NCBI RefSeq assembly: GCF_002993885.1
Contig: NZ_CM009578.1
Coordinates: 124,001 to 188,000 of the forward strand
Length of the DNA stretch: 64,000 bases
Direction: 5' to 3'
Source of the DNA: Sphingopyxis lindanitolerans
GTDB taxonomy: Bacteria; Pseudomonadota; Alphaproteobacteria; Sphingomonadales; Sphingomonadaceae
Positions 36,978 through 60,572 of this stretch are shown in pieces. Every line of letters begins with the position of its first letter. Within the stretch, counting starts at the first letter, position 1. The notes below the pieces were generated by a model. It was not told the DNA's origin, searched no databases, and saw nothing but the letters and a program-made list of their open reading frames with translations. A program made the translations under genes and the position numbers.

Positions 36978-36995
36978 AATTTGTCCGGACAAATT
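36978..36995. promoter_or_regulatory. candidate GntR operator, site 1 (18-bp perfect palindrome)
   Basis: AATTTGTCCGGACAAATT is perfectly symmetric and contains the 12-bp core TTGTCCGGACAA. It lies in the divergent hydrolase / aldehyde dehydrogenase region, six bases from the hydrolase start. The same core recurs exactly at 49036 and 49826. Confidence 0.75.
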
Positions 36996-37126
36996 GCGCT
37001 CGACAAGTCTTTTTTTTTCGGACTAGGGTGCAAATCATAAATTTGATGGAGACGGACGATGACGCTGATCGGCACCAAAATGGTTCGCGACCGGCGAAGA
37101 GCCTGCCGCAGGTGGGAAACACAGCC

Positions 37127-38563
37127 ATGACGCTTCCCGTCGTCAATCCGCGCACTGGCGCGGCCGATTACAGCATTGAACCGCTCGACGGCATGGCGAT
37201 CGCGTCGCTGGCGGCACGGCTGCGCTCCGGTCAGCGGCAATGGGCGGCGTTGACGCCCGAAGCGCGCGGTTATGCCTTGCGTGCGCTGGCCGAAGCGATG
37301 GGCCGCCACCGCGCGGCGCTGATCGCGGCGCTGACCGCCGATACCGGGCGCGCGGCGATTTCGGTGATCGAGGCCGATTCGATGGTGCGCACGCTCATTC
37401 GCTGGGCGGACAGCGCGCCCGCCATCATCGCGGGCGCCGAAATGACGGGCCGGCAGACGGGCATCCCGACGATCACCACATCGACGCGACTGATTCCCTA
37501 TCCGCTGGTCGGCGTCATCAGCCCGTGGAATTTCCCGCTGACACTGGCGCTGATCGACGCGATCCCGGCGCTCGCCGCGGGCTGCGCGGTCGTCGTCAAG
37601 CCGTCCGAAATCACCCCCCGCTTCATCCGCCCGCTGATGGCCGCGATCGCCGAGGTTCCGGCCATCGCCGCCGTGCTGGCGCTGATCGAGGGGGACGGCG
37701 CGACCGGCGCGGCGCTGGTCGAGCATGTCGACTATGTCGCCTTCACCGGATCGGTCGCGACGGGGCGCAAGGTCGGCGAGGCGGCGGCGCGCGCTTTCAT
37801 CCCCGCCAGCCTTGAACTCGGTGGCAAGGATCCGATGATCATCCTTGCCAGCGCCGATCCCGAGCAAGCGGCGGAAACCGCGCTGCGGGCGTCGGTGGTC
37901 AATACGGGGCAGGCGTGCCAGTCGATCGAGCGCGTCTATGTCGCGCGCGCCATTGCCGATCGCTTCCTGGCCGCGCTGGTCGCCAGGGCGAAAGCGGTGC
38001 GGCTCAATCATCCCGATGTGAACCGCGGCGACATCGGCCCCTTCATTTTTGCGCGGCAGGCCGCGATCGTTCAGGCACAGATCGACGATGCGGTGGCCAA
38101 GGGCGCAAAGCTGCTCGCGGGCGGGCAGGTCGAGACGCTGGGCGGTGGCCGCTATCTGCGCCCGACCGTGATCGTCGACGTCACCCCAGACATGGCGATC
38201 ATGACCGAAGAGACGTTCGGCCCGGTAATTCCCGTGACGCTGTTCGATAGCATCGACGAGGCGGTTCGCCATGCCAATAGCGGCATTTTCGGCCTGTCGG
38301 CCGCGGTGCTGGCGGGAAGCATCGAGGAGGCCGAAGCGGTGGCGGTGCGACTCGATGCCGGGGCGGTGTCGATCAACGACGGATCGCTGACCGCGATGGT
38401 CTGGGAGGCGGAAAAATCGAGCTTCGGCCAAAGCGGCCTCGGCCCGTCACGGATGGGCGACAGCGGCGTGCTGCGCTTTTTTCGCCGCCAGGCGATCATC
38501 CGGCAATCCGGCAGCGCGCTACCGCTCGCGGCCTATGCAGAGAAGGACATATTCAATGGATGA
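37127..38563 (+). CDS. NAD(P)-dependent aldehyde dehydrogenase
   Basis: A 478-residue aldehyde dehydrogenase oxidising an aldehyde to its acid. The cofactor region has SPWNFPLTLA (about residues 127-136), the general base is Glu230 in LELGGKD and the nucleophile is Cys264 in GQACQS. The ATG at 37127 (MTLPVVNPRTG) gives the family's normal N-terminus; an earlier in-frame start near 37028 would add 33 unlikely residues. It diverges from the hydrolase and shares its operator. The stop overlaps the next gene (ATGGATGA). It probably handles an aldehyde produced by the hydrolase or FAD oxidase of this regulon; the substrate is open. Confidence 0.9.
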   Translation: MTLPVVNPRTGAADYSIEPLDGMAIASLAARLRSGQRQWAALTPEARGYALRALAEAMGRHRAALIAALTADTGRAAISVIEADSMVRTLIRWADSAPAIIAGAEMTGRQTGIPTITTSTRLIPYPLVGVISPWNFPLTLALIDAIPALAAGCAVVVKPSEITPRFIRPLMAAIAEVPAIAAVLALIEGDGATGAALVEHVDYVAFTGSVATGRKVGEAAARAFIPASLELGGKDPMIILASADPEQAAETALRASVVNTGQACQSIERVYVARAIADRFLAALVARAKAVRLNHPDVNRGDIGPFIFARQAAIVQAQIDDAVAKGAKLLAGGQVETLGGGRYLRPTVIVDVTPDMAIMTEETFGPVIPVTLFDSIDEAVRHANSGIFGLSAAVLAGSIEEAEAVAVRLDAGAVSINDGSLTAMVWEAEKSSFGQSGLGPSRMGDSGVLRFFRRQAIIRQSGSALPLAAYAEKDIFNG

Positions 38564-39002
38564 TTTCAGGACGGCAATGCCGAACATGCTTCGGCACGAG
38601 GGCGTGTGGGAAGGCGAATATCGCCATGTCGACCGCGACGGCAGCCTGGTCGACTTCCACCATATGACCACGCGCTGCGAATTTCCGGCACACGGCGACG
38701 TCGCCTATATCCAGCATAATGTGCTGCGCTGGGATGATGGGCGTTCGGTGGAACGCAGTTTCGGCGGCGCGTTTCGCGACGGGCTGCTCTGGTGGGACAC
38801 CGATCGTTTCCACGGCCATGGCTGGGAGACGATGGACGGCATCGTCATGCTGCGGCTCGATCGCAAGGACGAGCCGGGCGTGCGCTTTACCGAGATGATC
38901 GAACTCAGCGACGACGGCCGGACACGCGCGCGCACCTGGCAATGGTTTCGCGACGGAGTCCCGTTTCGGCGGACCTTGTGCGACGAATGGCGGGTCGATT
39001 GA
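38556..39002 (+). CDS. conserved hypothetical protein, paralogue of 34901-35401
   Basis: A 148-residue protein starting at ATG 38556, overlapping the aldehyde dehydrogenase stop. Shared with the paralogue are RHEGVWEGEY, WDDGRSVER, DGLLWWDTD, EMIELSDDGRTR and RTWQWFRDG. It is likely a small beta-rich ligand-binding or isomerase-like protein. Its position mirrors that of the paralogue: each is the last gene of one arm of a divergent pair driven from the same operator. This suggests a heterodimer or two variants for successive intermediates; no catalytic motif is obvious. Confidence 0.75.
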   Translation: MDDFRTAMPNMLRHEGVWEGEYRHVDRDGSLVDFHHMTTRCEFPAHGDVAYIQHNVLRWDDGRSVERSFGGAFRDGLLWWDTDRFHGHGWETMDGIVMLRLDRKDEPGVRFTEMIELSDDGRTRARTWQWFRDGVPFRRTLCDEWRVD

Positions 39003-39034
39003 GCGTTTAACGCCCGCCATTCGCGCGCGCTGGA

Positions 39035-39769
39035 TCAGCGGTCGAGTTCGACCAGCTCGTACCAGGTCTGCATATAGCCCCCGACCCCGCCCTGGACGAA
39101 GATCGAGTCGCGGTCGGCGGTGACCCACATGTCATAATGCGGATGCGGGGTTCCGCCCATGCCGGGGCCTTCGTCGTCGACGAAGCGGAAGTGGCGGCAG
39201 TCGAAGGTGCCCGCCGCGACGGTGACGGTTTCTTCACCCACATATTCGAGCGCCATCACGACCTCGGCGATCATCGGCGGGGTGGCGCCGCGATGGTCGG
39301 GGGACGGAAGAAACAGGCGGAGTTTGCGGCGATGCGGACCTTTGGTCACGTCCATGCAGCGCGTGGTGTAGCCGTCGCCCGCGATGGGATGCGTGCCGAA
39401 CCCCTCGATCGCGCCCTGATAGGCGAGACTCTGCGACAGTCGGCCGATCGTCGGACCATGGCTTTCGCATGTGACGACGCCGCCGTCGGTGCCGGGCTGG
39501 TGGTGGATCCAGCCCGATCCCATGAAGCGGTCGCCGATCGTCAGGTGAACATGGAGATCCTGCGGGCGGCCTTCGCTGTCCATCGCATAGACGATGTCGC
39601 GCAGCACCGTCGGAGCAGGCTCCTCGATCTCGCAGCGCGCGCGAAAGATGCTGCTGCCGTCGCCATGATGGGTGAAGCTGAACCACTCGCGCCCGCGTTC
39701 GCGGTCGAACATCTCGGGCTTTTTCGACGTATAGCGGATCAGGCCGCTGACCGTGCGATGCTGCATCAT
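39035..39769 (-). CDS. hypothetical protein (DUF3108-like C-terminus)
   Basis: A 244-residue protein, last gene of the eight-gene leftward operon that begins with the TonB receptor at 48982. It is beta-rich, with paired His/Asp patches (HPHYDMW near the end) and a segment TVAAGTFDCRHFRF that resembles the core of DUF3108-type proteins. There is no signal peptide or membrane segment. The start overlaps the previous stop by four bases. I do not recognise a specific function; the conserved C-terminal GGYMQTWYELVEL suggests a fold that binds a hydrophobic ligand. Confidence 0.65.
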   Translation of the reverse strand: MMQHRTVSGLIRYTSKKPEMFDRERGREWFSFTHHGDGSSIFRARCEIEEPAPTVLRDIVYAMDSEGRPQDLHVHLTIGDRFMGSGWIHHQPGTDGGVVTCESHGPTIGRLSQSLAYQGAIEGFGTHPIAGDGYTTRCMDVTKGPHRRKLRLFLPSPDHRGATPPMIAEVVMALEYVGEETVTVAAGTFDCRHFRFVDDEGPGMGGTPHPHYDMWVTADRDSIFVQGGVGGYMQTWYELVELDR

Positions 39770-40134
39770 GTGTCGCGCATCCGCATATTCAGTTCGGCCA
39801 ATGACGGCTCGGGTGCTGCCTGCATGGCTTCCATCTCCTGCTGCATGCCGCGCATGATCCGCGCGACATATTCCTTGGTCATCAGCGCGCGGTCATAGGC
39901 GGCGTCGCGATCGGGCGCATAAGCGTCGATGTCGGCGCGGCAGATCACCGCCTTGGTCTCCAGCAGCCGCTCGACCGTGTCGAGCCGCTCCTTGACCACC
40001 GCGAGCTCGCCCGCCAGCGCCATCACGATCGAAAGCGTGCGTTCGGCATGATAGTCGTTCAGCGTATCGGGGCGCTTGCCCTTGGCGCGGGCTCCGGCGC
40101 GGGCAATCCAATCGATGGGGTCGTCGTTGCTCAT
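39766..40134 (-). CDS. hypothetical small protein with coiled-coil helix
   Basis: A 122-residue, mostly helical protein. The ATG at 40134 (MSNDDPIDW) overlaps the methyltransferase stop (ATGA). The middle (LSIVMALAGELAVVKERLDTV, about residues 34-54) has a heptad-like pattern, so self-association or pairing with a neighbour such as the methyltransferase is plausible. The C-terminus is Met- and Glu-rich (MRGMQQEMEAMQ). No known domain is recognised. Both its ends overlap neighbouring genes by four bases, which argues that it is real and made in step with them. Confidence 0.65.
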   Translation of the reverse strand: MSNDDPIDWIARAGARAKGKRPDTLNDYHAERTLSIVMALAGELAVVKERLDTVERLLETKAVICRADIDAYAPDRDAAYDRALMTKEYVARIMRGMQQEMEAMQAAPEPSLAELNMRMRDT

Positions 40135-41330
40135 GCGTCTGCCTTCCAGGCTCCATAGGCGTTCCACGCCGCAGCGCGGCCGTGATCTTCGGTGTCCCCG
40201 GCGGGCGCCTGGGGGAAAATGTCGCGATCGACCACGGCGAGCACGCGCGCGGTAAACTGGCTGTCGCGCGGAAAGCCTGCGTCCGCCATGACCTGTTTCA
40301 GGTCGAGCGCGTGCATGGCCGACCAGCAGGGTTCGTTGTTGTTGAACGCATCCCAGTCGCGGATAAACTGTTCGTAAAGCGGCATGTCCGGATCATATTG
40401 CGGCTGTTCGAGGTGGAACATCAGGCCGCCGGGCGCCAGCACGCGCGCCGCTTCGGTGATGATGCGGGGCAGCGCCTTGCCCGACAGTTCGTGCAGGAAC
40501 ATCGTCGTTTGGACCCAGTCGAAATGACCGTCGGGAAAACGGCTCATATCCTCGGCATCCATCTGGATGAAGCGCAGATTGGTCGCGCCCAGCGCCTGCG
40601 CGCGGGCATGGCCATAGCGCAGCACCGCCGCGCCAGTGTCGATGGCGATCACCTCGGTGTCGGGAAAGGCGAGCGCGAGCGGCACGATATTATGGCCGAT
40701 TGTGCAGCCCAGATCGAGGATGCGGCGCGGCGTCCAACCCGGGCGTTCCTTGGCGATCCATTCGACCAGCGCCTGCCCGCCGCCGTCGGTCAAGGCGCCG
40801 AGCGCGCCTGCGGTCGTGGCAAAGAAGCCGCTGTCGTAATTGGCGCCCGTCGACATATCACCGGCGCGTTCCTCGCCATAATAGCTGCCGGGCATGCAAT
40901 GAATGTCGGCGGCGGTCATATAGGGCGGTTGCGCAAGGTCGGGATCCAGCTCGAGCGTGTCGCGGCCCTCGTTGAACTGGCGGACCTTCGCCGACAGCTC
41001 GTCGATCTGGCGCAGTGTGATCGCGCGGCCGTTCTGCTGGCGCATTTCCATCGAATTGCGCTTGAGCGCCGACCAATAGCGGTGCCAGTCGTCGGCGTTC
41101 ATCGCATCGCGAATCTCGAAACGATCGGCGGGATCGCGGCCATGTTCGGCCCGGAAGGCGGGGAGGACGCGCGTGTCATAAGCGATCTTGTTGCCCGCGC
41201 CGAGCGCGCCCGACAGATATTTGTTGAGCGCGGCGAGATAGTTATAGCGCGCCGCTTCATCATGTGTCGGGGAAGGGAATACCGCGTGCCGGGCAACCGC
41301 CGAATAGGGCGGGGGGACATCCTGTTTCAT
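40131..41330 (-). CDS. class I SAM-dependent methyltransferase
   Basis: A 399-residue protein. The last 220 residues form a Rossmann methyltransferase domain with motif I LDLGCTIGHN (about residues 205-214), the acidic residue of VIAIDT, MDAEDM and the post-motif LAPGGLMFH. The first 170 residues are an extra helical domain I do not recognise. ATG 41330 overlaps the preceding stop (ATGA). In a degradative operon a methyltransferase may move a methyl group from the substrate to an acceptor, or modify a phenol or acid; sequence does not tell which. Confidence 0.82.
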   Translation of the reverse strand: MKQDVPPPYSAVARHAVFPSPTHDEAARYNYLAALNKYLSGALGAGNKIAYDTRVLPAFRAEHGRDPADRFEIRDAMNADDWHRYWSALKRNSMEMRQQNGRAITLRQIDELSAKVRQFNEGRDTLELDPDLAQPPYMTAADIHCMPGSYYGEERAGDMSTGANYDSGFFATTAGALGALTDGGGQALVEWIAKERPGWTPRRILDLGCTIGHNIVPLALAFPDTEVIAIDTGAAVLRYGHARAQALGATNLRFIQMDAEDMSRFPDGHFDWVQTTMFLHELSGKALPRIITEAARVLAPGGLMFHLEQPQYDPDMPLYEQFIRDWDAFNNNEPCWSAMHALDLKQVMADAGFPRDSQFTARVLAVVDRDIFPQAPAGDTEDHGRAAAWNAYGAWKADA

Positions 41331-42457
41331 ATCAGACCTTCCTTTGCGAGGCGTTCGATCGCCTGTTCCTGAACCCGCAGGAAATGGTCGCGGTCGGGCA
41401 CCTTGATCTTGCCGCCTTCGATCAGGCTGTCGGCGGGGTGCGGCGCTGTGCCGCCATAGATGGGTGCGAACAGTTCGAGCCGCTGGCGCGCGAGGAAATT
41501 GGTCATTCCCGGCTTGCGGCGCTGCGCGCGCAGGGCGTTAAGATCGATGTCGGCAAAAGCGGTGAAGGTTTCGCCGCTATTCGATTCGGCGAGCATATTG
41601 CCCTTGTAATCGATGATCGACGAATTGCCGTCGGCCGACGCCAGCGGCATCGCCGTCGCCTCGATCCCGCCGGTGTTCGCCGAGACGACATAGGCGATAT
41701 TCTCGAACGCGCGGGCGCGCCGCGCGATCTGCTTGGGCGTTGCGAGCGGCGATCCGATCTCGGACGAGCTGTGAACGAAAATCTCCGCGCCGCGCAGCGC
41801 GTGGGCGCGCGCGATTTCGGGATAGAGGATTTCCTCCGACGCGATGGCCGCGAGGTTGCCGATCTCGGTCCGGGCAACGGGAAACACGCCGTCGATCCCA
41901 TAGATGTCGAGATATTTGGACCAGACGTCGTGCGGCGTCGGCGCGAACATCGAATTGAGCCGCCGGTAGCGCAGCACGACCTCGCCGTTCGGCGCCACGA
42001 CGAAACTGGTCTGGAAATAGAGGCCGGGGAAATTCGGATCGCGTTCATAGGCGTTGCCGGCGATGAACAGTTTCTGCGCCTGCGCCACCTTGCCCAGGGC
42101 GTCATATTCGGGGCCGTCGATGTCGAGCGCCGCCTTTTCGGCAAAATCGGGGATCGAGATGCGGCCAGGATAGCTGGTCAGCACATATTCGGGCAGCACG
42201 GCAAGCCGCACCGGGGTGCCGCCATATTGCTGGATGAAGATCGCGGACGAGCGGAGTTTGACTCCGATTTCCTCGATCATCGCGATCATCTGGGCACTCG
42301 CGCCCTTGCGGTCGGGCTGACGTTCGACCGAGCGTGCGGCGAGTTGCAGGGCCACGGCGGCAAAAGGCTTTGTCGCGGTCATCGCTTCAACCCTGGCCGG
42401 CCATGGCAGGCTGGCGGCGATCATCCCCGCCAGCGCATGTCTGCGATCGAGAATCAT
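41327..42457 (-). CDS. nitrilase-superfamily protein with altered catalytic triad, Tat-like signal
   Basis: A 376-residue protein of the carbon-nitrogen hydrolase fold. The Glu of the Glu-Lys-Cys triad is present (E90 in AVLPEYVLTSY), but the Lys position reads YRR (Arg166) and the Cys position, just before the ILYPE element, reads Ser207. The usual amidase or nitrilase reaction therefore cannot be assumed. The N-terminus LDRRHALAGMIAAS followed by PWPARVEA looks like a twin-arginine signal peptide, which is rare for this superfamily. It sits 14 bases after the FAD-oxidase gene. It may be a binding protein, a serine-based hydrolase or a lyase; the fold is firm, the function open. Confidence 0.82.
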   Translation of the reverse strand: MILDRRHALAGMIAASLPWPARVEAMTATKPFAAVALQLAARSVERQPDRKGASAQMIAMIEEIGVKLRSSAIFIQQYGGTPVRLAVLPEYVLTSYPGRISIPDFAEKAALDIDGPEYDALGKVAQAQKLFIAGNAYERDPNFPGLYFQTSFVVAPNGEVVLRYRRLNSMFAPTPHDVWSKYLDIYGIDGVFPVARTEIGNLAAIASEEILYPEIARAHALRGAEIFVHSSSEIGSPLATPKQIARRARAFENIAYVVSANTGGIEATAMPLASADGNSSIIDYKGNMLAESNSGETFTAFADIDLNALRAQRRKPGMTNFLARQRLELFAPIYGGTAPHPADSLIEGGKIKVPDRDHFLRVQEQAIERLAKEGLI

Positions 42458-42471
42458 CCATCATCACCCCT

Positions 42472-44031
42472 TTATAGCCCGAGGCTGCCCGGATTCATAA
42501 GATTGTCGGGATCGACCGCGCGCTTGATCGCGCGCAGCAGGCCCCACGCCGCGTCGTCGCTCGCCGCGGCGAGTGGGTAGGCGCGCGCGACTTGCAAATG
42601 CGCGGCATCGAGGTCGCGGAAAATGCCGATGATGTCGCTGCGCAGCCGGGCGACGAGCGCGTGCGCCTCCGGATTTGGCGGGAAACGGCCCAGCTTTGCC
42701 AGATGATCGGGCTCGATCGAGCGGCAATGGATCGGCTCCAGCGCGTCGGGCCAGAAAAAGACCGGCTCGATCAGGCAGGTCTGGCGGCTGACCGCGGCGA
42801 GCATCGCCCCCGCCGCGATCCCCTGCGCCTCCATCGCGGCGCGCTCGTCCGCGAACAGCGCCTGAATGCGGTTCCAGCCCTCGACCAGCCGACTGTGCGG
42901 CAGCAGCCCGTGGACCGGAACCCAGCGCTCGCCGCCCGGCCCGACCATCGAATTGACCGGCGGAAAGGGGTTGGCACGCAGGATCTTGGGGATCGTATTT
43001 TCGATCGGCTTCCCGCCGTGCCGGACCGCGATCGCCTCGATCGCCATCATATCGGCGTCGACCGCGCTCTGGTGGCGCCCTTCTGCGATCAGGTGGAGCG
43101 AGAAGGGGACATCGTCGAGGAAAGCGCGCCCCGCCGCGACAACCTTGGCGCCTTCCTTCAGCGCCTTCAGCACCGATCCTTGCGCCTTCATCATGTTGAC
43201 GAGCGATTTGGCGTCCTTGGTCAGGCTGTCGCGCTTCACCCGCTGCGCCTGAAGATAGGGATCGAAACCGAAATTTTCGGACGCGAGGCCTTCGCGCGCG
43301 ATTTCGCTCATCGCTCCGAAATAGGCGGCGGCGTCGGGAAAGGCGAACGAGCCATAAGCAAAGGCGGCGCCGTCGCGGACCAGCTTGAGCGTGATCGTCG
43401 CCTTCACCCCCAGCGCGCCGCAATCGGCGGCGAACAGCCCGGTGATGTCGGGGCCGAAGGGACGGAAGAAATCGCCGCCGGTCGACAGGATGCGGCCATC
43501 GGCGAGCACGACCTCGAAGCATAGCGCGGCGTCGACGACGGTGCCGCCCGCCGCGCCCCAAAAGACGCCATTCTGGCTCATTCCGCCGCCGACCGTGGCC
43601 CGGATGCCCGACAGGGTGCCCCAGGCGAGCGTGCGCAGCCGCCGGGGCTTCAGCGCCTGATGCAATTGCGCCCAGGTGCAGCCCGCCTCGACCGTGACCG
43701 TCATATCCTCTTCGTTGATGTCGAGAATGCGGTTCATCGCGCCGGTGTCGATCAACAGCGCGCCGGGCTGGTCCGCCAGATAGCCGCCGGTATAGCTCAT
43801 CCCGCCGCCGCGCGGGACGACGGCGATGCCCTGCGCGGTGGCCGCGGCGATGCCGCGGGCGAGCATGGCCTTGTCGGTCGGCCGGAACACCGCAAGCGCC
43901 AGCGCGCCATCGCTGAACACGTCCTGCGAATAATAGCGCAGTTCGTCGGCATCGCGGACCAGGGCATCGGGACCGACCGCCGCGGTCAATGCCGCGAAAA
44001 CATCGCTCCTGGCCTCGATCGTCGTCGCCAT
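42472..44031 (-). CDS. FAD-binding oxidoreductase, VAO/PCMH type (FAD-linked oxidase)
   Basis: A 519-residue flavoprotein. The FAD-binding PCMH domain has VPRGGGMSYTGGYLA (about residues 70-84) and TVEAGCTWAQLHQAL; the C-terminal half is a FAD-linked oxidase domain ending in DPDNLMNPGSLGL. Relatives include glycolate/D-lactate dehydrogenases and vanillyl-alcohol or cresol-type oxidases. ATG 44031 (MATTIEARSD) starts one base after the MFS stop. It probably oxidises an alcohol, phenol or 2-hydroxy acid in the pathway. There is no export signal, so it acts in the cytoplasm. Whether it uses oxygen or a carrier is not visible. Confidence 0.87.
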   Translation of the reverse strand: MATTIEARSDVFAALTAAVGPDALVRDADELRYYSQDVFSDGALALAVFRPTDKAMLARGIAAATAQGIAVVPRGGGMSYTGGYLADQPGALLIDTGAMNRILDINEEDMTVTVEAGCTWAQLHQALKPRRLRTLAWGTLSGIRATVGGGMSQNGVFWGAAGGTVVDAALCFEVVLADGRILSTGGDFFRPFGPDITGLFAADCGALGVKATITLKLVRDGAAFAYGSFAFPDAAAYFGAMSEIAREGLASENFGFDPYLQAQRVKRDSLTKDAKSLVNMMKAQGSVLKALKEGAKVVAAGRAFLDDVPFSLHLIAEGRHQSAVDADMMAIEAIAVRHGGKPIENTIPKILRANPFPPVNSMVGPGGERWVPVHGLLPHSRLVEGWNRIQALFADERAAMEAQGIAAGAMLAAVSRQTCLIEPVFFWPDALEPIHCRSIEPDHLAKLGRFPPNPEAHALVARLRSDIIGIFRDLDAAHLQVARAYPLAAASDDAAWGLLRAIKRAVDPDNLMNPGSLGL

Positions 44032-44032
44032 G

Positions 44033-45292: not shown

Positions 45293-45293
45293 C

Positions 45294-48982: not shown

Positions 48983-49035
48983 GTCGTTCTCCCTCGTTCC
49001 GATCACGGCGATCATTGCGTGTCGCCTCTTGTGAT

Positions 49036-49047
49036 TTGTCCGGACAA
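49036..49047. promoter_or_regulatory. candidate GntR operator, site 2
   Basis: A perfect TTGTCCGGACAA lies between the divergent TonB-receptor operon and the membrane-protein gene. A TTGACA box on the minus strand at 49073-49068 places it near the expected -10 region of the receptor promoter, a repressor-like position. Confidence 0.75.
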
Positions 49048-49104
49048 CTTTCATGTTGAAGAAAGGCTGTCAAGCCGCAATGGCAGGGAATGGGAGAGAT
49101 GATG

Positions 49105-49785
49105 ATGTCGCTGAACGATCTGGCCTATCCGATGATGGTCTATTTCCATTTGATATTGTTCGTTATTTGGCTCGGCGGCGATATCGGCGTATTCTTGGCC
49201 GGTCAGCAGTTTCGCAAGCGGACTCGCTATTCGCTCGATCAGCGACTCGCGCTCCTGCGGCTCTTGGTCGGCATCGATATGTTCCCGCGTTCGGCCTGGG
49301 CGCTGATGGTGCCGTCCTCGTTGACGCTGCTGGTCCTGGGTGGATTCTGGGCGCTGCCGCTCGCCGCGCTGGCGGCCGCCTGGGCGACGGGTTTCGTCTG
49401 GCTCTGGCTCATCTGGGACGCGCATCATCACGATATGACGCCCCGCGCGGTGCGCAACCGGCGGATCGAAAGCTGGCTCAAATATGCGATTGCCGTCGGC
49501 TATCTGGCGCTGGGCACGGTCTCGCTCACCAGCGGCGCGCCGCTGGCGCCGCCCTGGCTGGCGGCAAAAGCCTTGCTGTTCGGCCTGATCTTTGTCGCCG
49601 CCATCCTGATCGACGTCTGTTTCAAACCCGTCGGACCGCAATTGGCGCGTCTGATCGAGCAGGGATCGAGCGACGCGACCGAGGGGCCGTTGCTCCGCAC
49701 GATGGACCGCACGCGGATATGGGTTTTCGTCGTTTATGCGCTGTTGATCGCCGTTTCCTTTATCGGAGCGGTCAAGCCCTTCTGA
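49105..49785 (+). CDS. integral membrane protein of unknown function
   Basis: A 226-residue protein with about five to six hydrophobic segments, beginning MSLNDLAYPMMVYFHLILFV. I prefer the third of three successive ATGs (49105), six bases from GGGAGAG; starts at 49090, 49099 or 49102 are possible. A His in the first membrane segment and the loop WDAHHHDM could bind heme or a metal, as in CopD- or DUF2269-like proteins, but I do not recognise the family with confidence. It shares the operator at 49036 with the TonB operon and precedes the CitE-led operon. It may take part in uptake or electron transfer. Confidence 0.75.
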   Translation: MSLNDLAYPMMVYFHLILFVIWLGGDIGVFLAGQQFRKRTRYSLDQRLALLRLLVGIDMFPRSAWALMVPSSLTLLVLGGFWALPLAALAAAWATGFVWLWLIWDAHHHDMTPRAVRNRRIESWLKYAIAVGYLALGTVSLTSGAPLAPPWLAAKALLFGLIFVAAILIDVCFKPVGPQLARLIEQGSSDATEGPLLRTMDRTRIWVFVVYALLIAVSFIGAVKPF

Positions 49786-49813
49786 TGAAATTCGCCCTTT
49801 CCGACATTTGCGC

Positions 49814-49842
49814 TTGACTTATAAGTTGTCCGGACAAATTCT
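49814..49842 (+). promoter_or_regulatory. candidate promoter of the CoA-lyase operon
   Basis: TTGACT (49814-49819), a 17-base spacer and AATTCT (49837-49842). The operator at 49826-49837 fills the spacer, the classic placement for a repressor. The -10 match is weak. Confidence 0.4.
49826..49837. promoter_or_regulatory. candidate GntR operator, site 3
   Basis: A third perfect TTGTCCGGACAA, 33 bases before the GTG start of the CitE-like gene. It is identical over all 12 bases to the cores at 36981 and 49036. Confidence 0.75.
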
Positions 49843-49869
49843 TAAAGCCGCAATCAGGGAGATTCATTC

Positions 49870-50700
49870 GTGACCACGGCCAATGGCCTTTCGTCGATGC
49901 TGTTCGTGCCGGGTTCGAAGCCCGAGCGATTCGAAAAGGCGCTGGCGAGCGGCGCCGATGCCGTGTGCATCGATCTGGAGGATTCGGTTCCCGAGGCGGG
50001 CAAGGTCGGCGCGCGTACGGCGGCGATCGCAGCGCTGGCCGGCGGCGACCGGCGCCTGGCCATGCGCATCAACGGCCTGGCGACCCGCGCCGGGCTGGAA
50101 GACCTGCTCGCGCTCGACGATGCGGCGACGCTGCCCGCCCTGCTGTTCGTTCCGATGGTCGAAAGCGACGCGCAACCGGCGCTCGTTCGCGCGGTGCTGG
50201 GCGACCGCGCCCCCGGCATCGTCCCGTTGATCGAGACGGTGAAGGGGTTGCGCGCGGCGCCGGACATCGCGGCGGCGCCGGGCGTGGCCGCGATGATGTT
50301 CGGCGGCGGCGACCTGTCGGCGGACCTTGGGGTGATGCTGGCGTGGGAGCCGCTGCGCACCGCGCGCGGACTGTTCGTCATGGCCTGTGCGGGCGGCGGC
50401 ATTCCGGCGATCGATGTGCCTTTCCTTGCCCTCGACGATGCCGACGGACTGCGCGCCGAGGCCGAGGCCGCGAAAGCGATGGGCTTTACCGGCAAGGCGG
50501 CGATCCATCCGGCACAGGTCGCCGCGATCAATGCCGCGTTCCGCCCGACGGCGGACGAGATCGCCGAAGCCGAAGAGGCGCAACGGGTTTTCGACGCGGC
50601 CGGCGGGGCCGCGGTTCGTTTCAATGGTCGCATGCTCGAAACACCGATCATGCGACGCTATCAAAGGATATTGGCAATGCGGAGTATGCAAGATGCGTGA
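49870..50700 (+). CDS. HpcH/HpaI-CitE family CoA lyase
   Basis: A 276-residue lyase of the citrate-lyase beta / malyl-CoA lyase type. Family motifs are LFVPGSKPERF, DLEDSVPEAGK, the metal-binding Glu of PLIETVKGL and Asp of FGGGDLSADLG, and GKAAIHPAQV near the end. GTG 49870 follows GGGAGA. Such enzymes split or form 3-hydroxy dicarboxylyl-CoAs such as malyl-, citramalyl- or methylmalyl-CoA. Followed by a MaoC hydratase, an acyl-CoA dehydrogenase and two CoA-transferases, it would perform the final carbon-carbon cleavage. The exact substrate is inferred from the module, not proved. Confidence 0.87.
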   Translation: MTTANGLSSMLFVPGSKPERFEKALASGADAVCIDLEDSVPEAGKVGARTAAIAALAGGDRRLAMRINGLATRAGLEDLLALDDAATLPALLFVPMVESDAQPALVRAVLGDRAPGIVPLIETVKGLRAAPDIAAAPGVAAMMFGGGDLSADLGVMLAWEPLRTARGLFVMACAGGGIPAIDVPFLALDDADGLRAEAEAAKAMGFTGKAAIHPAQVAAINAAFRPTADEIAEAEEAQRVFDAAGGAAVRFNGRMLETPIMRRYQRILAMRSMQDA

Positions 50701-51202
50701 CGGTGTGATCGAGGTCGGGCCGCAGCGGTATCGCGAAAGTTTTGGCCGCTACTACGAGGAATTTGTTGTCGGGGACGTGTACGAGCACCGCCCCGGCCGG
50801 ACGATTACCGAGACCGACAACACCTGGTTCACCCTGCTGACGATGAACACGCATCCGGCTCACTTCGATTTCGAATTTGCGAAGAAGACCGAGTTCAAAA
50901 AGCCGCTGGTCTGTTCGCCGCTGACGGTAGCGATCATGACCGGGCAGAGCGTTTCCGATGTCAGCCAGAAATCGGTCGCCAATCTCGGCTGGAAGGAAAT
51001 CCGTCTGTTGAAGCCGGTCTTTGCCGGCGACACGATTTATTCGGAGACCGAGGTGCTGGAAAAGCGCGAATCGGGTAAGCGCCCCGAACAGGGCATCGTG
51101 ACCATCAAGACCATCGGCAAGAATCAGCATGGCGAAGTCGTGTGCGATTTCGTCCGCGTCATGCTGATCTGGAAGCGCGGCTTCGGCCCGGTCGATGATT
51201 GA
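50693..51202 (+). CDS. MaoC-like acyl-CoA hydratase
   Basis: A 169-residue hotdog-fold protein. The hydratase signature is altered toward the mesaconyl/itaconyl-CoA type: ETDNTWFTLLTMNTHPAHFD (about residues 41-60), with an Asp and a His at catalytic spacing. ATG 50693 overlaps the lyase stop (50698-50700) by eight bases. It would hydrate an unsaturated acyl-CoA formed by the following dehydrogenase, giving a substrate for the lyase. A mesaconyl-CoA hydratase activity is a reasonable guess because the same trio (CitE-like lyase, MaoC, CaiB) occurs in mesaconate and citramalate metabolism. Confidence 0.85.
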   Translation: MRDGVIEVGPQRYRESFGRYYEEFVVGDVYEHRPGRTITETDNTWFTLLTMNTHPAHFDFEFAKKTEFKKPLVCSPLTVAIMTGQSVSDVSQKSVANLGWKEIRLLKPVFAGDTIYSETEVLEKRESGKRPEQGIVTIKTIGKNQHGEVVCDFVRVMLIWKRGFGPVDD

Positions 51203-51212
51203 GGAAGCCCGG

Positions 51213-52382
51213 ATGACCGACCCCATTCAACGCCAGATCGACCCCGACGACGAGGCGGCGCTGCTCGACAGCATCGACCGCTGGATCGAACGCGATGTGC
51301 GCCCCGTCGTCATGTATCACGATCATAACGACATCTGGCCCGCCGAACTGGTGGCACAGATGGCGGAAATGGGGCTGTTCGGCGCCACCATCGGACAGGA
51401 ATATGGCGGCCTTGGCCTGCCGGCGACCACCTATGCCAAGATCATCACGCGCATCTCCTCCTATTGGATGGCGCTGACCGGAATCGTCAATTCGCACCTC
51501 ATCATGGCGGCGGCGGTCGAACGCTTCGGGACAGAGGCGCAGAAGACGAAATGGCTGTCGCAATTCGCGAGCGGCGCGATCCGCGGCGGCCTGGCGCTGA
51601 CCGAACCCGACGCGGGCACCGATCTTCAGGGCATTCGCACCACCGCGGTGCGCGACGGTGACGATTATGTCATCAACGGCACCAAGACCTGGATTTCCAA
51701 CGGCATTCAGGGAAGCTGCTTTGCGCTGCTGGTCAAGACCGATCCCAAGGCCGAGCCGCGATACAAGGGCATGAGTTTCTTCCTCGCCCCAAAGGGCGAC
51801 GGATTTTCGGTCGGCAAGAAGTTCGACAAGCTGGGTTACAAGGCTATCGATAGCGCCGAACTGGTGTTCGACAATTATCGCATCCCGGCCGAAAATCTGA
51901 TCGGCGAGGTCGAGGGGCAGGGCTTTTTCCAGGCGACCGGCGGGCTCGAGCTCGGGCGGATCAACGTCGCGGCGCGTGGGGTGGGGCTCGCCGAAGGCGC
52001 GCTGCGGCTCTCGACCGAATATGCCCAGATCCGCAAGACGATGGGTAAGCCTATCGCCCAGCATCAGGCGATCCAGCTCAAGCTCGGCGAAATGGTCACC
52101 CGCACCGAGGCGGCGCGGTTGCTCGTCGCGCAGGCGGCGCAGGCCTATGACCGCGGCGAGCGTTGCGACATGGAAGCCGGCATGGCGAAATTCTTCGCTT
52201 CGGAGGCTGCGCTGAGCAACGCGGAGGAAGGCATGCGCATTTTCGGCGGATACAGCTATTCCAAGGAATATGAGATCGAGCGTTTCTATCGCGACGCCCC
52301 CCTGATGTGCATCGGCGAGGGCACCAACGAGATGCAGCGGATGATTATCGCCAAGCAGTGGCTGAAAAGGAATCCGGCGTGA
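51213..52382 (+). CDS. acyl-CoA dehydrogenase (glutaryl-CoA/short-chain type)
   Basis: A 389-residue acyl-CoA dehydrogenase. Signatures are ALTEPDAGTDLQGIRTTAV (about residues 130-148), KTWISNG, and the C-terminal YRDAPLMCIGEGTNEMQR with the catalytic-base Glu of GEGTNE. ATG 51213 is seven bases from GAGGAA; an ATG at 51195 overlapping the MaoC stop would add six residues. It desaturates an acyl-CoA and passes electrons to an electron-transfer flavoprotein encoded elsewhere. It is coupled to the first CaiB gene by a GTGA overlap. Confidence 0.9.
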   Translation: MTDPIQRQIDPDDEAALLDSIDRWIERDVRPVVMYHDHNDIWPAELVAQMAEMGLFGATIGQEYGGLGLPATTYAKIITRISSYWMALTGIVNSHLIMAAAVERFGTEAQKTKWLSQFASGAIRGGLALTEPDAGTDLQGIRTTAVRDGDDYVINGTKTWISNGIQGSCFALLVKTDPKAEPRYKGMSFFLAPKGDGFSVGKKFDKLGYKAIDSAELVFDNYRIPAENLIGEVEGQGFFQATGGLELGRINVAARGVGLAEGALRLSTEYAQIRKTMGKPIAQHQAIQLKLGEMVTRTEAARLLVAQAAQAYDRGERCDMEAGMAKFFASEAALSNAEEGMRIFGGYSYSKEYEIERFYRDAPLMCIGEGTNEMQRMIIAKQWLKRNPA

Positions 52383-53572
52383 CGGCACCACTGCCGCTGG
52401 CCGGTTTTCGCATCCTGTCGGCCGAACAATATGGCGCGGGCCCCTATGGCACCATGTTCCTAGCGCAGATGGGCGCCGAGGTCATCAAGATCGAACCGCC
52501 GGGGGTGGGCGATACCGCGCGCGCGGTCGGCCCGCATTATCTGCGCGAGGGCGAAAGCCTCTATTTCCAGAGCTTCAACCTCAACAAGCGCTCGCTGACG
52601 CTCGACCTCAACAAGCCCGAAGGGCAGGCGATATTGGCGCGGCTCGCCGCGTCGAGCCACGCGATGGTCAATAATCTGCGCGGCGACCTGCCCGACCGCA
52701 TGGGACTGACCTATGCAAAAATGGGGCAGGCCAATCCGGCGATCGTCTGCGCGCATCTGTCGGCCTATGGCCGCGACAATGAACGTCGCCGCTGGCCGGG
52801 CTACGACTATCTGATGCAGGCCGAGGCGGGGTGGATGGCGATGACCGGCGAGCCCGACGCCCCCCCGACGCGCGCCGGGCTGTCGCTCGTCGATTTCATC
52901 ACCGGCACGATCATGACGATCGGGTTGCTCGGCGCGCTGGTCGATGCCCAGCGGACGGGCAAGGGCCGCGATGTCGATGTCGATCTGTTGTCGGCGGCGG
53001 TTCACCAGATGAGCTATCCGGCGCTCTGGTATCTGAACGAAGGCGATGTCACGGGGCGGGTGCCGCGGTCGGCGCATCCGTCGGTGACGCCCAGCCAGAT
53101 GTTCCGCGCCGCCGATGGCTGGCTGTTCGTCATGGCGCAGCTTCCGAAATTCTGGACCGTGCTGATCGAGCGCATCGGCCATCCCGAGTTGGCGGCCGAT
53201 CCGCGTTTCGCGACACCCGCCGACCGGCTGGCCCACCGCGATGCGCTTACCGATGTTCTCGACGGCATCTTCGGCACGCAGCCGGTCGGCTATTGGATGG
53301 ACCTGCTCGCCAGTCATATGCCGGTATCGCCCGTCTATGGTCTCGACCAGGCGCTCGACAGCGCCTGGCTGCGCGAAACCGGGATGATCGACAGCGTGTC
53401 GCATCCCGACCGCGACGAAATGCAGGTGCTTGCCAACCCGATCCGTTTCGATGGCGAACGGCTGCCCAATCGCGCCGCGCCGTTGCTTGGCGCCGACACC
53501 GACGCGGTGCTGGCCGAAGCCGGCTATGCGGCGAGCGAAGTGGCGGCGCTGCGCGCTGACGGCATCGTCTGA
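52379..53572 (+). CDS. CaiB/BaiF family CoA-transferase (family III), first copy
   Basis: A 397-residue type III CoA-transferase. The N-terminus FRILSAEQYGAGPYGTMFLA, then GAEVIKIEPP, and the middle GYDYLMQAEAGWMAMTG with VDFITGT are typical. GTG 52379 overlaps the dehydrogenase stop and follows AAGGA. These enzymes move CoA from one acyl-CoA to a free acid via an aspartyl-CoA intermediate. A second, different CaiB gene begins four bases after its stop; the two may form a heterodimer, as in some benzylsuccinate CoA-transferases, or act on separate steps. Confidence 0.88.
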   Translation: MTAPLPLAGFRILSAEQYGAGPYGTMFLAQMGAEVIKIEPPGVGDTARAVGPHYLREGESLYFQSFNLNKRSLTLDLNKPEGQAILARLAASSHAMVNNLRGDLPDRMGLTYAKMGQANPAIVCAHLSAYGRDNERRRWPGYDYLMQAEAGWMAMTGEPDAPPTRAGLSLVDFITGTIMTIGLLGALVDAQRTGKGRDVDVDLLSAAVHQMSYPALWYLNEGDVTGRVPRSAHPSVTPSQMFRAADGWLFVMAQLPKFWTVLIERIGHPELAADPRFATPADRLAHRDALTDVLDGIFGTQPVGYWMDLLASHMPVSPVYGLDQALDSAWLRETGMIDSVSHPDRDEMQVLANPIRFDGERLPNRAAPLLGADTDAVLAEAGYAASEVAALRADGIV

Positions 53573-53576
53573 TCCG

Positions 53577-54665
53577 ATGGGGAAGCTGTCGGGCATCAAG
53601 GTCGTCGATCTGTCGCAGTTCCTGCCGGGGCCGATGCTGTCGATGATGATGGCCGACCAGGGCGCCGAGGTGGTGAAGGTCGAGCCACCCTCGGGCGACC
53701 CGGCGCGCGACCAGGCGCCGTTCGAGGCCGGGCAGTCGATCTGGTTCCGCAACCTCAACCGCGGCAAGCAGAGCGTCATGCTCGACCTTAAAAGCGAAGC
53801 CGGGTGCGCGGCGCTTTGGCGCCTGATCGACGAGGCCGATGTGTTCATCGAGGGGTTTCGCCCCGGCGTCGTAGCCCGGCTGGGTTTTGGCTATGCGGCG
53901 GTGGCGGCGCGCAACCCGCGACTCGTCTATTGCTCGATTTCGGCCTTTGGGCAGACGGGCGCCCTCGCGCACCATCCCGCGCACGACATGGCGGTGCAGG
54001 CGATGGCGGGGTTCCTGTCGGTCAACGACGGGCCGGACGGAACGCCGGTCGTTCCCGGCGCCGCGTCGGCCGATATGGCGGCGGGTCTGACCGCGCTGTC
54101 GGCGGTGCTGATGGCGCTGATCGGCCGCGCGGCGAGCGGCAAGGGCGATTATGTCGATATTGCGATGTTCGACGCGATGCTGCCCTGGTGCGCGCATATC
54201 GCCGGAACCGCGATCGGCGGCGGCGATCCGCCGCGATCGGACAGCCAGCGCTCGCTGGGCGGCGCGGCTTTCTATAATATCTATGACACCGCCGATGGAC
54301 GGCATGTCGCGCTGGGCGGACGCGAACCCAAATTCGTTGCCAATCTATTGACCGCGCTGGGCCGTCCCGACCTCATCCCGCTCGGCAGCGAGGCGCCGGG
54401 CGATGCGCAGGCGCCGCTGATCGCATTTCTGCGCGGCATTTTTGTAACCCGCACGCGCGATCAATGGGTGCAATGGTTCGCCGACAAGGATGTCGCTTTT
54501 TCGCCGATCCTCGATTTTCGCGAAGCGTTCGCCGCGCCGCATATCGCCGAACGCGGATTGGTCGCGGCGACGGATGGGGCGCACCAGATTGCGCCCGCGA
54601 TCCGCTTCGCCGACGAAGCGCCGTGGACGCCAACGACGGCGCCGGAACTCGGCCGCGATGGCTGA
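53577..54665 (+). CDS. CaiB/BaiF family protein (AMACR/CoA-transferase type), second copy
   Basis: A 362-residue family III protein beginning GIKVVDLSQFLPGPMLSMMM, followed by GAEVVKVEPPSGDPAR and DMAVQAMAGFLSVN. The opening resembles alpha-methylacyl-CoA racemases more than the first copy does, so it could be a racemase/epimerase that sets the configuration required by the dehydrogenase. Alternatively it is the second subunit of a heteromeric CoA-transferase. ATG 53577. It ends four bases from the convergent GntR gene, closing the operon that starts at 49870. Confidence 0.86.
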   Translation: MGKLSGIKVVDLSQFLPGPMLSMMMADQGAEVVKVEPPSGDPARDQAPFEAGQSIWFRNLNRGKQSVMLDLKSEAGCAALWRLIDEADVFIEGFRPGVVARLGFGYAAVAARNPRLVYCSISAFGQTGALAHHPAHDMAVQAMAGFLSVNDGPDGTPVVPGAASADMAAGLTALSAVLMALIGRAASGKGDYVDIAMFDAMLPWCAHIAGTAIGGGDPPRSDSQRSLGGAAFYNIYDTADGRHVALGGREPKFVANLLTALGRPDLIPLGSEAPGDAQAPLIAFLRGIFVTRTRDQWVQWFADKDVAFSPILDFREAFAAPHIAERGLVAATDGAHQIAPAIRFADEAPWTPTTAPELGRDG

Positions 54666-54669
54666 CCTC

Positions 54670-55425
54670 CTATTTGTCCGCCTCGATATGCATCGCATAG
54701 GCGAAACGGTCGCCCGGATGGTGGCTGGCCGAAATCTCGAATATCCGGTCGGACGGATCGACGAAGCAGCGCAGGATGCGAAGGCAGGGGCTGCGTCGCG
54801 GCACGTCGAGTGCGGCGGCTACCGGCGCGCTCGCCGATACCGCCTGAATATCCTGGGTGATGCGCGCGATGCGAAGCCCGGCCAGCCGTTCGAGCTGGCG
54901 AAAGACCGGATCCTCGTTGGGCCGGATCTGCCGCGCCGCGGCGGCAAGATCGGGATGAATATAGGTGTCGGTCAGCGCGATCGGTCCCTGTTCGCCCTGC
55001 CGCGTCCGAAGACCCCGGAAATGGTGCCAGCGCCCGCCCGACGCGTCGCCGATATGGACGGAGAGCTTTCTGGGGAGCGGCGTCGTGCCCATCGGTTCGA
55101 ACACATAGCTGCTGTCGCGGGCATATTGCAGGATTTCGCCAACGTTCGACAACGGCTGGTGCAGCGCGCCGCCGCGCGCCGCCGCCGGCTGGACCACCGT
55201 CCCCGATCCGCGGCGACGCTGGATCAATCCTTCGCTTTGCAGCGAGCGCAGCGCTTCGCGAACGGTGAAGCGGCTGACGCCGTAGCGCGCGCAGAGTATG
55301 CTTTCGGTCGGAAACTGCGCCGGGTCGGGATAATCGCCGCGCAGGATTTCGGCGCGCAATTCGTCGGCCAGCGCCTGATAGCGCGGCTTTCCGTTGCCAT
55401 TTCGAATTGCGATCGACAAATCCAT
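54670..55425 (-). CDS. GntR-family (HutC/UTRA) transcriptional regulator
   Basis: A 251-residue regulator with an N-terminal winged helix (FPTESILCARYGVSRFTVRE, recognition helix about residues 39-58; RRRGSGTVV wing) and a C-terminal UTRA ligand domain. ATG 55425 (MDLSIAIRNG) follows AAGGGG; an ATG at 55446 would add seven residues. UTRA regulators of this subfamily bind symmetric GT...AC sites, and the perfect TTGTCCGGACAA at three promoters nearby fits that layout. A one-mismatch copy at 55531-55542 lies between or just inside the divergent genes here and could give autoregulation. The inducer would be a pathway metabolite. Confidence 0.9.
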   Translation of the reverse strand: MDLSIAIRNGNGKPRYQALADELRAEILRGDYPDPAQFPTESILCARYGVSRFTVREALRSLQSEGLIQRRRGSGTVVQPAAARGGALHQPLSNVGEILQYARDSSYVFEPMGTTPLPRKLSVHIGDASGGRWHHFRGLRTRQGEQGPIALTDTYIHPDLAAAARQIRPNEDPVFRQLERLAGLRIARITQDIQAVSASAPVAAALDVPRRSPCLRILRCFVDPSDRIFEISASHHPGDRFAYAMHIEADK

Positions 55426-55463
55426 TCTCCCCTTTGGGCTGATCATCGGCCGGAGACTGCCCG

Positions 55464-56711
55464 GTGAACGCCGACGATCATAGCCTGATAGAGCGAACTG
55501 CACAGCATTTGCAGCGCCCGATGGAAAATATTGTCCAGACAAAGGCGCGGCTCCATCTGCTCGACTGGATCGGCTGCGTCGCGGGTGCACGAAACTCGGA
55601 AATCGGCCGGATACAGCGCCGCGATCGGCTCGGCGAGGCCGTGGTCGATCGGGCGGCCTGGCTCGGCAATGTGCTGGAAATGGACGATGTTCACCGTGCG
55701 GCCATCCTGCATCCCGGCCCGGTCATCTGGCCCGCGGTGCTGGGGGCGGGGAGCGACGCGCTGGACGAAGCGCTCGCCGCCGCGGTGCGCGGATATGAAG
55801 CGGTCATCGCAATCGGCGCCACTTTCGACGCGCGCCATTACGGCCACTGGCACAATAGCGCCACCGCCGGCTGTTTCGGAGCGGCGGCGGCGGCGGCATG
55901 CCGCTTGGGCGCGAGCCAGGATCAGCTCGTTTCGGCCCTCGGGCTTGCCGGTTCGGTGACCGGCGGCCTGTGGCAGATGCGGCACGAGCCGGTAATGGCG
56001 AAGCAATGGCATATCGCCCATGCAGTCGCGACTGGGCGCGCGGCGGCGCGGCAGGCGATGGCGGGGGTGACCGGGCCGCGCTTCATCCTCGAAGGACCGC
56101 AGGGCCTGTTCGCCGCGACCTGCACCGAAGCGAAGCCGCTCGCCCTTGGCGCGGGTTGGCGGATCGACGAAGTCAGCTTCAAGCCGTGGGGCGCGTGCCG
56201 CCACGCCCACCCCGCGATCGACGCCGCGCTGGCGTTGAAGGCGGCCGGGAAATTGGCCGGGCCGGTGACGGTGTCGACCTATCGCGACGCGCTGACCTTT
56301 TGCGACCGGGCGACGCCCGACGGCGTCGCGGAGGCGAAATTCTCGCTGCAACATGCCGTTGCCGTGGTGATGGCGCGCGGCGAGCCCCGGCTGACCGATT
56401 TCGAGCCCGACGCCATCGCCGCCCTGGCGGAGGTGCGCGCGCTCGTCACCGTTGCAGAGGACGAGGCGCTGACCGCCGCCTACCCCGCGCATTTCGGCGC
56501 GACGGTATCGAGCGGGGCCGGATCGGTGACGCTGGCCGACGCGCGCGGCGATCCCGAACGGCCGCTGCCCGTCGATGGCGTGATCGAGAAGGCCCGGGCG
56601 CTGATGATATGGGGCGGCATCGCCGCGACGGCGGCCGAGAATGCGATTTCGACCGTCCTCGAAACCGATCGCGTGTCCGCCGTTACCGACCTTTTGGAGG
56701 ATTGGCTGTGA
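55464..56711 (+). CDS. MmgE/PrpD family protein, first copy
   Basis: A 415-residue protein of the 2-methylcitrate dehydratase (MmgE/PrpD) family. The core segments AVRGYEAVIAIGATFDARHY (about residues 108-127) and VSFKPWGACRHAHPAID are present. GTG 55464 is seven bases from GGAGA; an ATG at 55521 would put the start next to the imperfect operator. Members dehydrate or isomerise hydroxy-tricarboxylic acids, and several act as decarboxylases or itaconate-pathway enzymes. It precedes a second member with a GTGA overlap. A heteromeric dehydratase is likely; substrate unknown. Confidence 0.86.
   Translation: MNADDHSLIERTAQHLQRPMENIVQTKARLHLLDWIGCVAGARNSEIGRIQRRDRLGEAVVDRAAWLGNVLEMDDVHRAAILHPGPVIWPAVLGAGSDALDEALAAAVRGYEAVIAIGATFDARHYGHWHNSATAGCFGAAAAAACRLGASQDQLVSALGLAGSVTGGLWQMRHEPVMAKQWHIAHAVATGRAAARQAMAGVTGPRFILEGPQGLFAATCTEAKPLALGAGWRIDEVSFKPWGACRHAHPAIDAALALKAAGKLAGPVTVSTYRDALTFCDRATPDGVAEAKFSLQHAVAVVMARGEPRLTDFEPDAIAALAEVRALVTVAEDEALTAAYPAHFGATVSSGAGSVTLADARGDPERPLPVDGVIEKARALMIWGGIAATAAENAISTVLETDRVSAVTDLLEDWL
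55531..55542. promoter_or_regulatory. imperfect GntR-type palindrome
   Basis: TTGTCCAGACAA differs from the perfect operator core by one base. It lies about 105 bases from the GntR start and within the first codons of the MmgE gene. Intragenic placement makes it weaker than the other three sites; autoregulation is possible if transcription starts upstream. Confidence 0.35.
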
Positions 56712-60560: not shown

Positions 60561-60572
60561 AAGGAGAGCATC

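Follow-up and report, generated by a model that had tools for sequence, protein, structure and literature searches.

The 64,000-nucleotide stretch of the Sphingopyxis lindanitolerans genome analysed here (assembly GCF_002993885.1, contig NZ_CM009578.1, positions 124,001 to 188,000 of the forward strand; hereafter the window) carries a catabolic gene cluster, a gene for a GntR/UTRA regulator of the HutC type (54670–55425, minus strand, start codon inferred) and three exact copies of a 12-base pair (bp) palindrome, TTGTCCGGACAA, found by a window scan at positions 36981, 49036 and 49826. This palindrome is a candidate operator of the regulator.

Window genes were annotated by Pfam, NCBIfam and PDB sequence matches. 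The cluster includes a two-gene minus-strand unit composed of abH528, an alpha/beta-hydrolase of 528 amino acids (35385–36971, start inferred), and, behind it, 34901, a small protein with a weak DUF3598_N match (34901–35401). An aldehyde dehydrogenase gene (ALDH; 37028–38563, plus strand, start uncertain) lies on the far side of the first palindrome. A minus-strand operon of approximately 9.9 kb (48982–39035) is headed by a TonB-dependent receptor (46487–48982, start inferred) and continues with a beta-lactamase-fold (PF00144) esterase-like protein (45294–46487, family match), for which no match is listed in 16 printed relative loci, an MFS transporter (44033–45292, family match), a FAD_binding_4 (GlcD/D-lactate dehydrogenase-like) oxidoreductase (42472–44088, family and PDB matches), a carbon-nitrogen hydrolase (41327–42457; formamidases make up three of its four PDB matches at E≤1e-10), a class I methyltransferase (40131–41330) and two small conserved proteins, one without a Pfam match (39766–40167) and one with a weak match to DUF3108 (39035–39769). 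This arm had been predicted to span 12.5 kb; because ALDH is on the other strand and convergent, it ends at 39035.

Divergent from the TonB gene is 49090 (49090–49785, plus strand), a small protein that is hydrophobic by eye (membrane-like) and has no family above its cut-off. The plus-strand operon that follows comprises a HpcH/HpaI CoA lyase (49870–50700; RipC-like, below the RipC cut-off), an open reading frame (ORF) containing a MaoC-type hydratase (50387–51202; the true start is near 50700 but is not fixed), an acyl-CoA dehydrogenase (ACAD; 51195–52382) and two CaiB-type CoA-transferases (52307–53572 and 53577–54665, the latter within an ORF of 53430–54665), after which comes the minus-strand GntR/UTRA gene. 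A third, syntenic block on the plus strand (55464–63338) encodes PrpD1, PrpD2, a PaaK-like ligase, an amidase, an SDR, a PuuE-like deacetylase and an ECH; control of this block by the motif is uncertain. Gene order is largely kept, with gaps, in contigs of Sphingobium, Sphingopyxis, Erythrobacter, Altererythrobacter and Glacieibacterium and of further genomes of the family (the same 16 loci). C-N hydrolases of differing folds are numerous in the cluster, with the carbon-nitrogen hydrolase at 41327–42457, the amidase at 59385–60560 and the PuuE-like deacetylase at 61708–62577; isochorismatase-type C-N hydrolases are present in two relatives (G285 and G218).

The three exact copies of TTGTCCGGACAA are the only ones in the whole home genome (4.37 Mb, three contigs), as originally predicted for the window, and a reversed-pattern control gave none; base composition leads one to expect approximately 0.17 exact copies per 4.37 Mb. 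When up to two mismatches to the 12-mer are allowed, the home genome contains 102 sites versus 94 for the control, which is background level, and the information therefore sits in the exact core. With inferred start codons, all three sites are intergenic and near gene starts. The site at 36981 is 9 bp upstream of abH528 (inferred ATG at 36971). The site at 49036 is 53 bp upstream of the TonB gene (inferred ATG at 48982, chosen because a signal-peptide-like stretch comes after it) and 42 bp upstream of 49090, and that at 49826 is 32 bp upstream of the CoA lyase (inferred GTG at 49870).

The flanks of 117 distinct exact sites (a survey that leaves out the genome G072, discussed below) agree on A at -3 (0.65), A at -2 (0.88) and T at -1 (0.73). 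This agreement, AAT...ATT, extends the core to a palindrome of approximately 18 bp, AATTTGTCCGGACAAATT, and common flanks reach only approximately 3 bp on either side of the core. Within the window, the predicted operator before abH528 (36978–36995) is a perfect 18/18 copy, that between the TonB gene and 49090 (49033–49050) has two mismatches to the consensus, and that before the CoA-lyase operon (49823–49840) has one.

At three or fewer mismatches, the 18-mer is found at four sites in the home genome and at none for the control. The fourth site (two mismatches; C1:195765, equivalent to 71765 in window numbering and to L061 7765) is 7.8 kb past the window end and precedes a minus-strand unit encoding a COesterase (inferred start), a DUF1838 protein, an amine oxidase, a TonB receptor and a zinc alcohol dehydrogenase (ADH). 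The stretch L061:6074-7966 (approximately 70074–71966 in window numbering) bears this site as AATTTGACTGGACAAATT. The COesterase-DUF1838-amine oxidase-TonB-ADH unit probably belongs to the same regulon. DUF1838 genes are also directly behind exact copies in two relatives (G060 and G364), and isochorismatase-family genes are directly behind exact copies in G285 and G218; several ORFs around these copies and around the LysR-associated copy described below are mechanical and were used for orientation only. Given the fourth 18-bp site and the genes behind the relatives' copies, the regulon is probably a little wider than the window. The regulon had been predicted to be local: all three exact copies do lie in the cluster, but the fourth site falls outside the window.

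Placement of the motif was compared across relatives in two sets, counting motifs within 300 bp upstream of each gene. The less biased set consists of 27 contigs fetched by GntR alone; the wider set includes loci fetched by or around the motif, and so is partly motif-picked, and leaves out the own-genome loci (L001-L003, L031 and L061). Both sets leave out matches below 45% identity, alignments starting beyond residue 45, upstream regions shorter than 230 bases and duplicates, and rows for MaoC are less complete than others, here as well as in the comparison of gene order and among the dispersed copies described next, as the query has stop codons in its first part. Of the 27 GntR-fetched contigs, 25 contain one or more exact copies; of the remaining two, L018 ends before the expected place and L029 is a 33% partial match. 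In this set, the exact motif is upstream of the CoA lyase in 23/23 rows, of the TonB gene in 11/11 and of the 49090-type gene in 13/13, and upstream of ACAD, CaiB1, CaiB2 and PaaK in 0/25 each and of gntR in 2/26. The corresponding counts in the wider set are 35/35 for the CoA lyase, 21/22 for TonB, 22/27 for the 49090-type gene and 9/10 for abH528. Among rows from relatives, the methyltransferase gene has its own exact operator in 4/14 and the DUF3108-like gene in 3/12. In the wider set, the distance from the end of the site to the start codon is 7–19 bp for abH528 (nine rows) and, in 32 of 35 rows, 28–58 bp for the CoA lyase.

Four genomes (G038, G250, G219 and G030) have dispersed motif copies that are far from gntR. 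Eleven of these 13 copies were viewed: seven immediately precede a homologue of TonB, MaoC, PDA or 34901, and two are before a distant TonB homologue (32–36%). Most of the viewed dispersed copies thus still precede cluster homologues, which is consistent with a regulator acting in trans.

The motif and the regulator also co-occur across genomes. In a sample of 397 family genomes, 65 encode a GntR homologue at E≤1e-25, and 50 of these have a match at E≤1e-50, the threshold used to define an orthologue. The exact motif is present in 50/50 genomes with an orthologue (48 with at least two copies; median five) versus 28/347 without (Fisher p approximately 1e-43, for genomes that are not phylogenetically independent and copy numbers entered by hand from the homologue and motif tables). 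Among the 15 genomes with weaker homologues, four bear the motif, including G385, in which two copies are 6–8 kb from the homologue. Among 385 genomes of the class (some from the same family), a search found, besides the home genome, four GntR homologues with 35–38% identity (E≤1e-40). G462 has two exact copies and one near copy within 8 kb of the GntR gene on the same contig, G541 and G409 each have a one-mismatch copy approximately 1.3 kb from it, and G554 has no copy with one mismatch or less near its homologue. Genome-wide counts at one mismatch or less (seven, eight, four and four for G541, G409, G554 and G462, respectively) are not clearly higher than those of the reversed control (four, three, five and seven), and so the extension of the motif-regulator link to 35–38% homologues outside the family is no more than suggestive.

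The regulator matches PF00392 (68.1 bits) and PF07702 (66.6 bits), both above cut-off, giving a GntR winged helix followed by a UTRA domain, and is the sole regulator among the selected window genes scanned from 28692 on. A protein search retrieved 1136 relatives at E≤1e-20; the shortened names among the 120 listed specify nothing beyond GntR or HTH-type regulator. Of proteins with solved structures, those closest in sequence are NagR (YvoA of Bacillus subtilis, which binds dre sites; 60 bits) and DasR (39 bits). These proteins share the GntR/UTRA architecture with the home protein and recognize a palindrome with the same placing of G at -4. An excerpt of PMC4333415 describes NagR as reading G-5 via Arg38, G-4 via Arg48 and G-7 via the wing residue Gly69. 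The residues aligned to these in the home GntR are Ser, Arg and Gly, respectively, so that the equivalents of Arg48 and Gly69 are conserved and that of Arg38 is lost. In a set of 62 distinct sequences that includes the home protein (at least 44% identity), Arg occupies the Arg48 position in all 62, the wing glycine is retained, and the Arg38 position is Ser in 34, Thr in 22, Ala in three, Asn in two, Gly in one and Arg in none. Retention of Arg48 with loss of Arg38 predicts G at -4 but T at -5, as the operator (TTGTCC|GGACAA) shows, in contrast to the G at -5 of the NagR/DasR type. The GT-N4-AC spacing of the operator is NagR/HutC-like.

The home protein is neither a NagR/DasR orthologue nor a true HutC. 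It has Ser at the Arg38 position, and, unlike in NagR/DasR systems, no amino-sugar genes were recognized among the annotated cluster genes. HutC, the histidine utilization repressor (TIGR02018), belongs to the same GntR subfamily, but the home protein scores 94.7 bits against a 220-bit cut-off, whereas two other proteins of the home genome are above it (281 and 279.5 bits). Unlike in HutC systems, no hut genes were recognized among the annotated cluster genes. Histidine HutC regulons with a TonB receptor are mentioned for Sphingomonadales in an excerpt of PMC5343134.

As originally predicted, a one-mismatch copy, TTGTCCAGACAA, lies beside the GntR gene. This copy (55531–55542) falls within the 5' part of the PrpD1 coding sequence. 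Located 105 bp ahead of the inferred start of gntR, it is a possible, here weak, autoregulatory site; because the gap between gntR and PrpD1 is only 38 bp, a control site for gntR would lie in PrpD1. In 13 aligned relatives, the same place holds an exact core in three (L004, L008 and L081), a core with one mismatch in L009 and one with two mismatches in L005. A core with one mismatch or less is found within 250 bp upstream of gntR in 17 of 63 distinct regions (own included), as compared to 104 of 4000 stretches drawn at random from these loci, among which real sites are also present. Autoregulation of gntR in part of the group is plausible on the basis of these alignments.

Taken together, co-occurrence, conserved placement, dispersed copies and contact residues support the original proposal that the palindrome marks a GntR regulon: TTGTCCGGACAA, as the core of the approximately 18-bp palindrome, is very probably the operator of the HutC-type GntR/UTRA repressor encoded at 54670–55425, which would be released by a pathway intermediate. 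A GntR dimer would bind the palindrome near the promoters of abH528, of TonB/49090, of the CoA-lyase operon and of one operon just past the window, and would block transcription of these units. By analogy with NagR, a small-molecule intermediate of the pathway would bind the UTRA domain, and GntR would then leave its operators. The uniqueness of the motif in this genome, its co-occurrence with the regulator, its conserved placement and the matching contact residues are computational results, from which binding, repression, the inducer and the substrate are inferred; repression is favoured over activation because of the position of the sites and because the relatives of the protein are repressors.

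Several observations weigh against this assignment. No sigma-70-like promoter was recognized in scans around the three exact sites, and promoter overlap is therefore judged from the distance to start codons that are themselves inferred; the prediction that each copy is in a promoter region stands as regards intergenic position near gene starts and lacks a recognized promoter. Taken as the longest mechanical ORF, abH528 (from 36992) and TonB (from 49054) would each run into the adjacent site. ALDH has no motif upstream in any of seven rows from relatives in the wider set and is ruled out as a conserved target; the abH528, TonB, 49090 and CoA-lyase units remain as predicted targets, and control of ALDH is unsupported in relatives. 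Two of the 11 viewed dispersed copies (L111 and L119) have no cluster homologue within 300 bp. The 28 motif-bearing genomes without an orthologue mostly have one copy (26 genomes), with two in G385 and four in G203. Also contrary are 36 exact copies on two contigs of G072, which are unexplained: 12 of the 15 viewed (L125-L139) are deep inside an ORF that is probably coding (GC3 of at least 0.81), with unrelated flanks. Another (L136) is approximately 10 bp upstream of an abH528 homologue, and two further, unviewed copies are 4–5 kb from the G072 gntR. Either G072 has a much larger target set or the palindrome is iterated there. A genome-wide search for copies in unrelated coding DNA, as suggested in the original prediction, thus finds no further exact copy in the home genome and many in this relative.

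The G072 copies are also what would favour a mobile or iterated repeat (REP/HIP-like) without a regulatory role. This explanation is very improbable, and is rejected for the home genome, where there are only three copies, all near gene starts; common flanks extend only approximately 3 bp on each side, and positions are conserved before the same genes. Chance recurrence of the 12-mer has a vanishingly small probability given three copies in 13 kb against the 0.17 expected genome-wide, and is rejected by the genome count, this expectation and conserved placement in the GntR-fetched contigs, in agreement with the original argument that chance would not place it three times in about 13 kb. A more serious possibility, although still a quite improbable one, is that the palindrome is the operator of another regulator travelling with the cluster (such as an unlinked transcription factor) and that GntR controls only itself. 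In its favour, G203 has four exact copies and no detected GntR orthologue, which is unexplained (no cluster homologue is beside the three viewed copies, L109, L115 and L121); the home gntR-proximal site is the weakest, departing from the 18-bp consensus at five positions; and other regulator genes are near single copies, namely LysR in G285, an FCD-type GntR in G218 (inside an ORF next to the CoA-lyase site) and a LytTR gene on the other side of the fourth home site. This is countered by the presence of the motif in every genome with a GntR orthologue, by the match of GT-N4-AC spacing and contact residues to HutC-type proteins, by the lack of any other regulator among the scanned window genes and by 35–38% homologues near motif variants in three of four genomes, where genome-wide counts are not clearly above control. 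Finally, GntR may bind these sites but activate transcription or act as a dual regulator. Mode of action is unreadable from sequence, but site positions before the abH528 and CoA-lyase starts are typical of repressor operators, and the PDB entries for YvoA and DasR, the nearest relatives of known structure, name them as repressors; we consider this version unlikely.

With GntR as the repressor, the target units would constitute one import-and-catabolism system: uptake by the TonB receptor and MFS transporter, ester or amide hydrolysis and oxidation would be followed by CoA activation, dehydrogenation, hydration and C-C cleavage. The gene content suggests that the cluster takes up a lipophilic ester or amide compound, hydrolyses it and passes the product to a CoA route resembling that for itaconate or methylsuccinate; Pfam, NCBIfam and PDB matches are too general to fix the substrate. 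The itaconate/methylsuccinate route proceeds by CoA transfer, dehydrogenation, hydration and cleavage to acetyl-CoA and a 2-oxo acid, and itaconate degradation by RipABC uses a CoA-transferase, an itaconyl-CoA hydratase and a citramalyl-CoA lyase. The home cluster shares the CaiB, MaoC and HpcH/HpaI lyase enzyme types with the Rip system, and has, beyond the Rip set, an acyl-CoA dehydrogenase, a second CaiB and several hydrolases. Its CoA lyase matches solved chain 3qll at 193 bits and RipC at 228.8 bits, below the 375-bit RipC cut-off, so that the cluster does not qualify as a Rip pathway by this measure; itaconate itself is therefore not claimed as the substrate.

A speculative and rather doubtful extension is that the regulon governs a so far undescribed pathway that breaks down a lipophilic natural product bearing an imide or amide (tetrapyrrole ring fragments, for example). 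Following TonB uptake, the ring would be opened by the PuuE-like cyclic-amide hydrolase and amidases to give an alkyl-substituted succinate or maleate. CoA activation, dehydrogenation and hydration of this acid would lead to cleavage by the citramalyl-CoA-lyase-like enzyme, and a diacid or its CoA ester would be the inducer. In open-licence literature, covered mostly as titles and abstract beginnings, a search for the operator string returned a Drosophila match and not this regulon, and searches for the cluster or regulon and for cyclic imide or maleimide catabolism returned no description of it.

Other features of the window lie to the left of these units. A phage-type integrase with arm-binding and central domains (33223–34548) is next to the hydrolase unit, near the cluster's left edge. 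The MlrC-like (M81) protein at 29790–31259 scores 308.5 bits against a 999-bit cut-off for the microcystinase MlrC, and so is a relative of this enzyme and not the enzyme itself. Ten ORFs were scanned in window positions 1–28684, encoding two TonB receptors, two enoyl-CoA hydratases, two AMP-ligases, an acyl-CoA dehydrogenase, a prolyl oligopeptidase-type protein, a PF00144 protein and an autotransporter. This region is perhaps a second catabolic cluster; it contains no motif with two or fewer mismatches.

For a catabolic cluster of 20-plus genes that occurs in several genera of sphingomonads, Sphingobium and Erythrobacter among them, these results supply a regulator, an operator and a set of genes that can be put to the test. 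The operator would serve as a handle for dispersed pathway members in other genomes, such as the DUF1838 operon outside the window, and an operator-reporter fusion would be usable as an inducer screen. Loss of Arg at the Arg38 position, combined with T at -5, would offer a clean natural test of the rules of GntR/HutC operator recognition.

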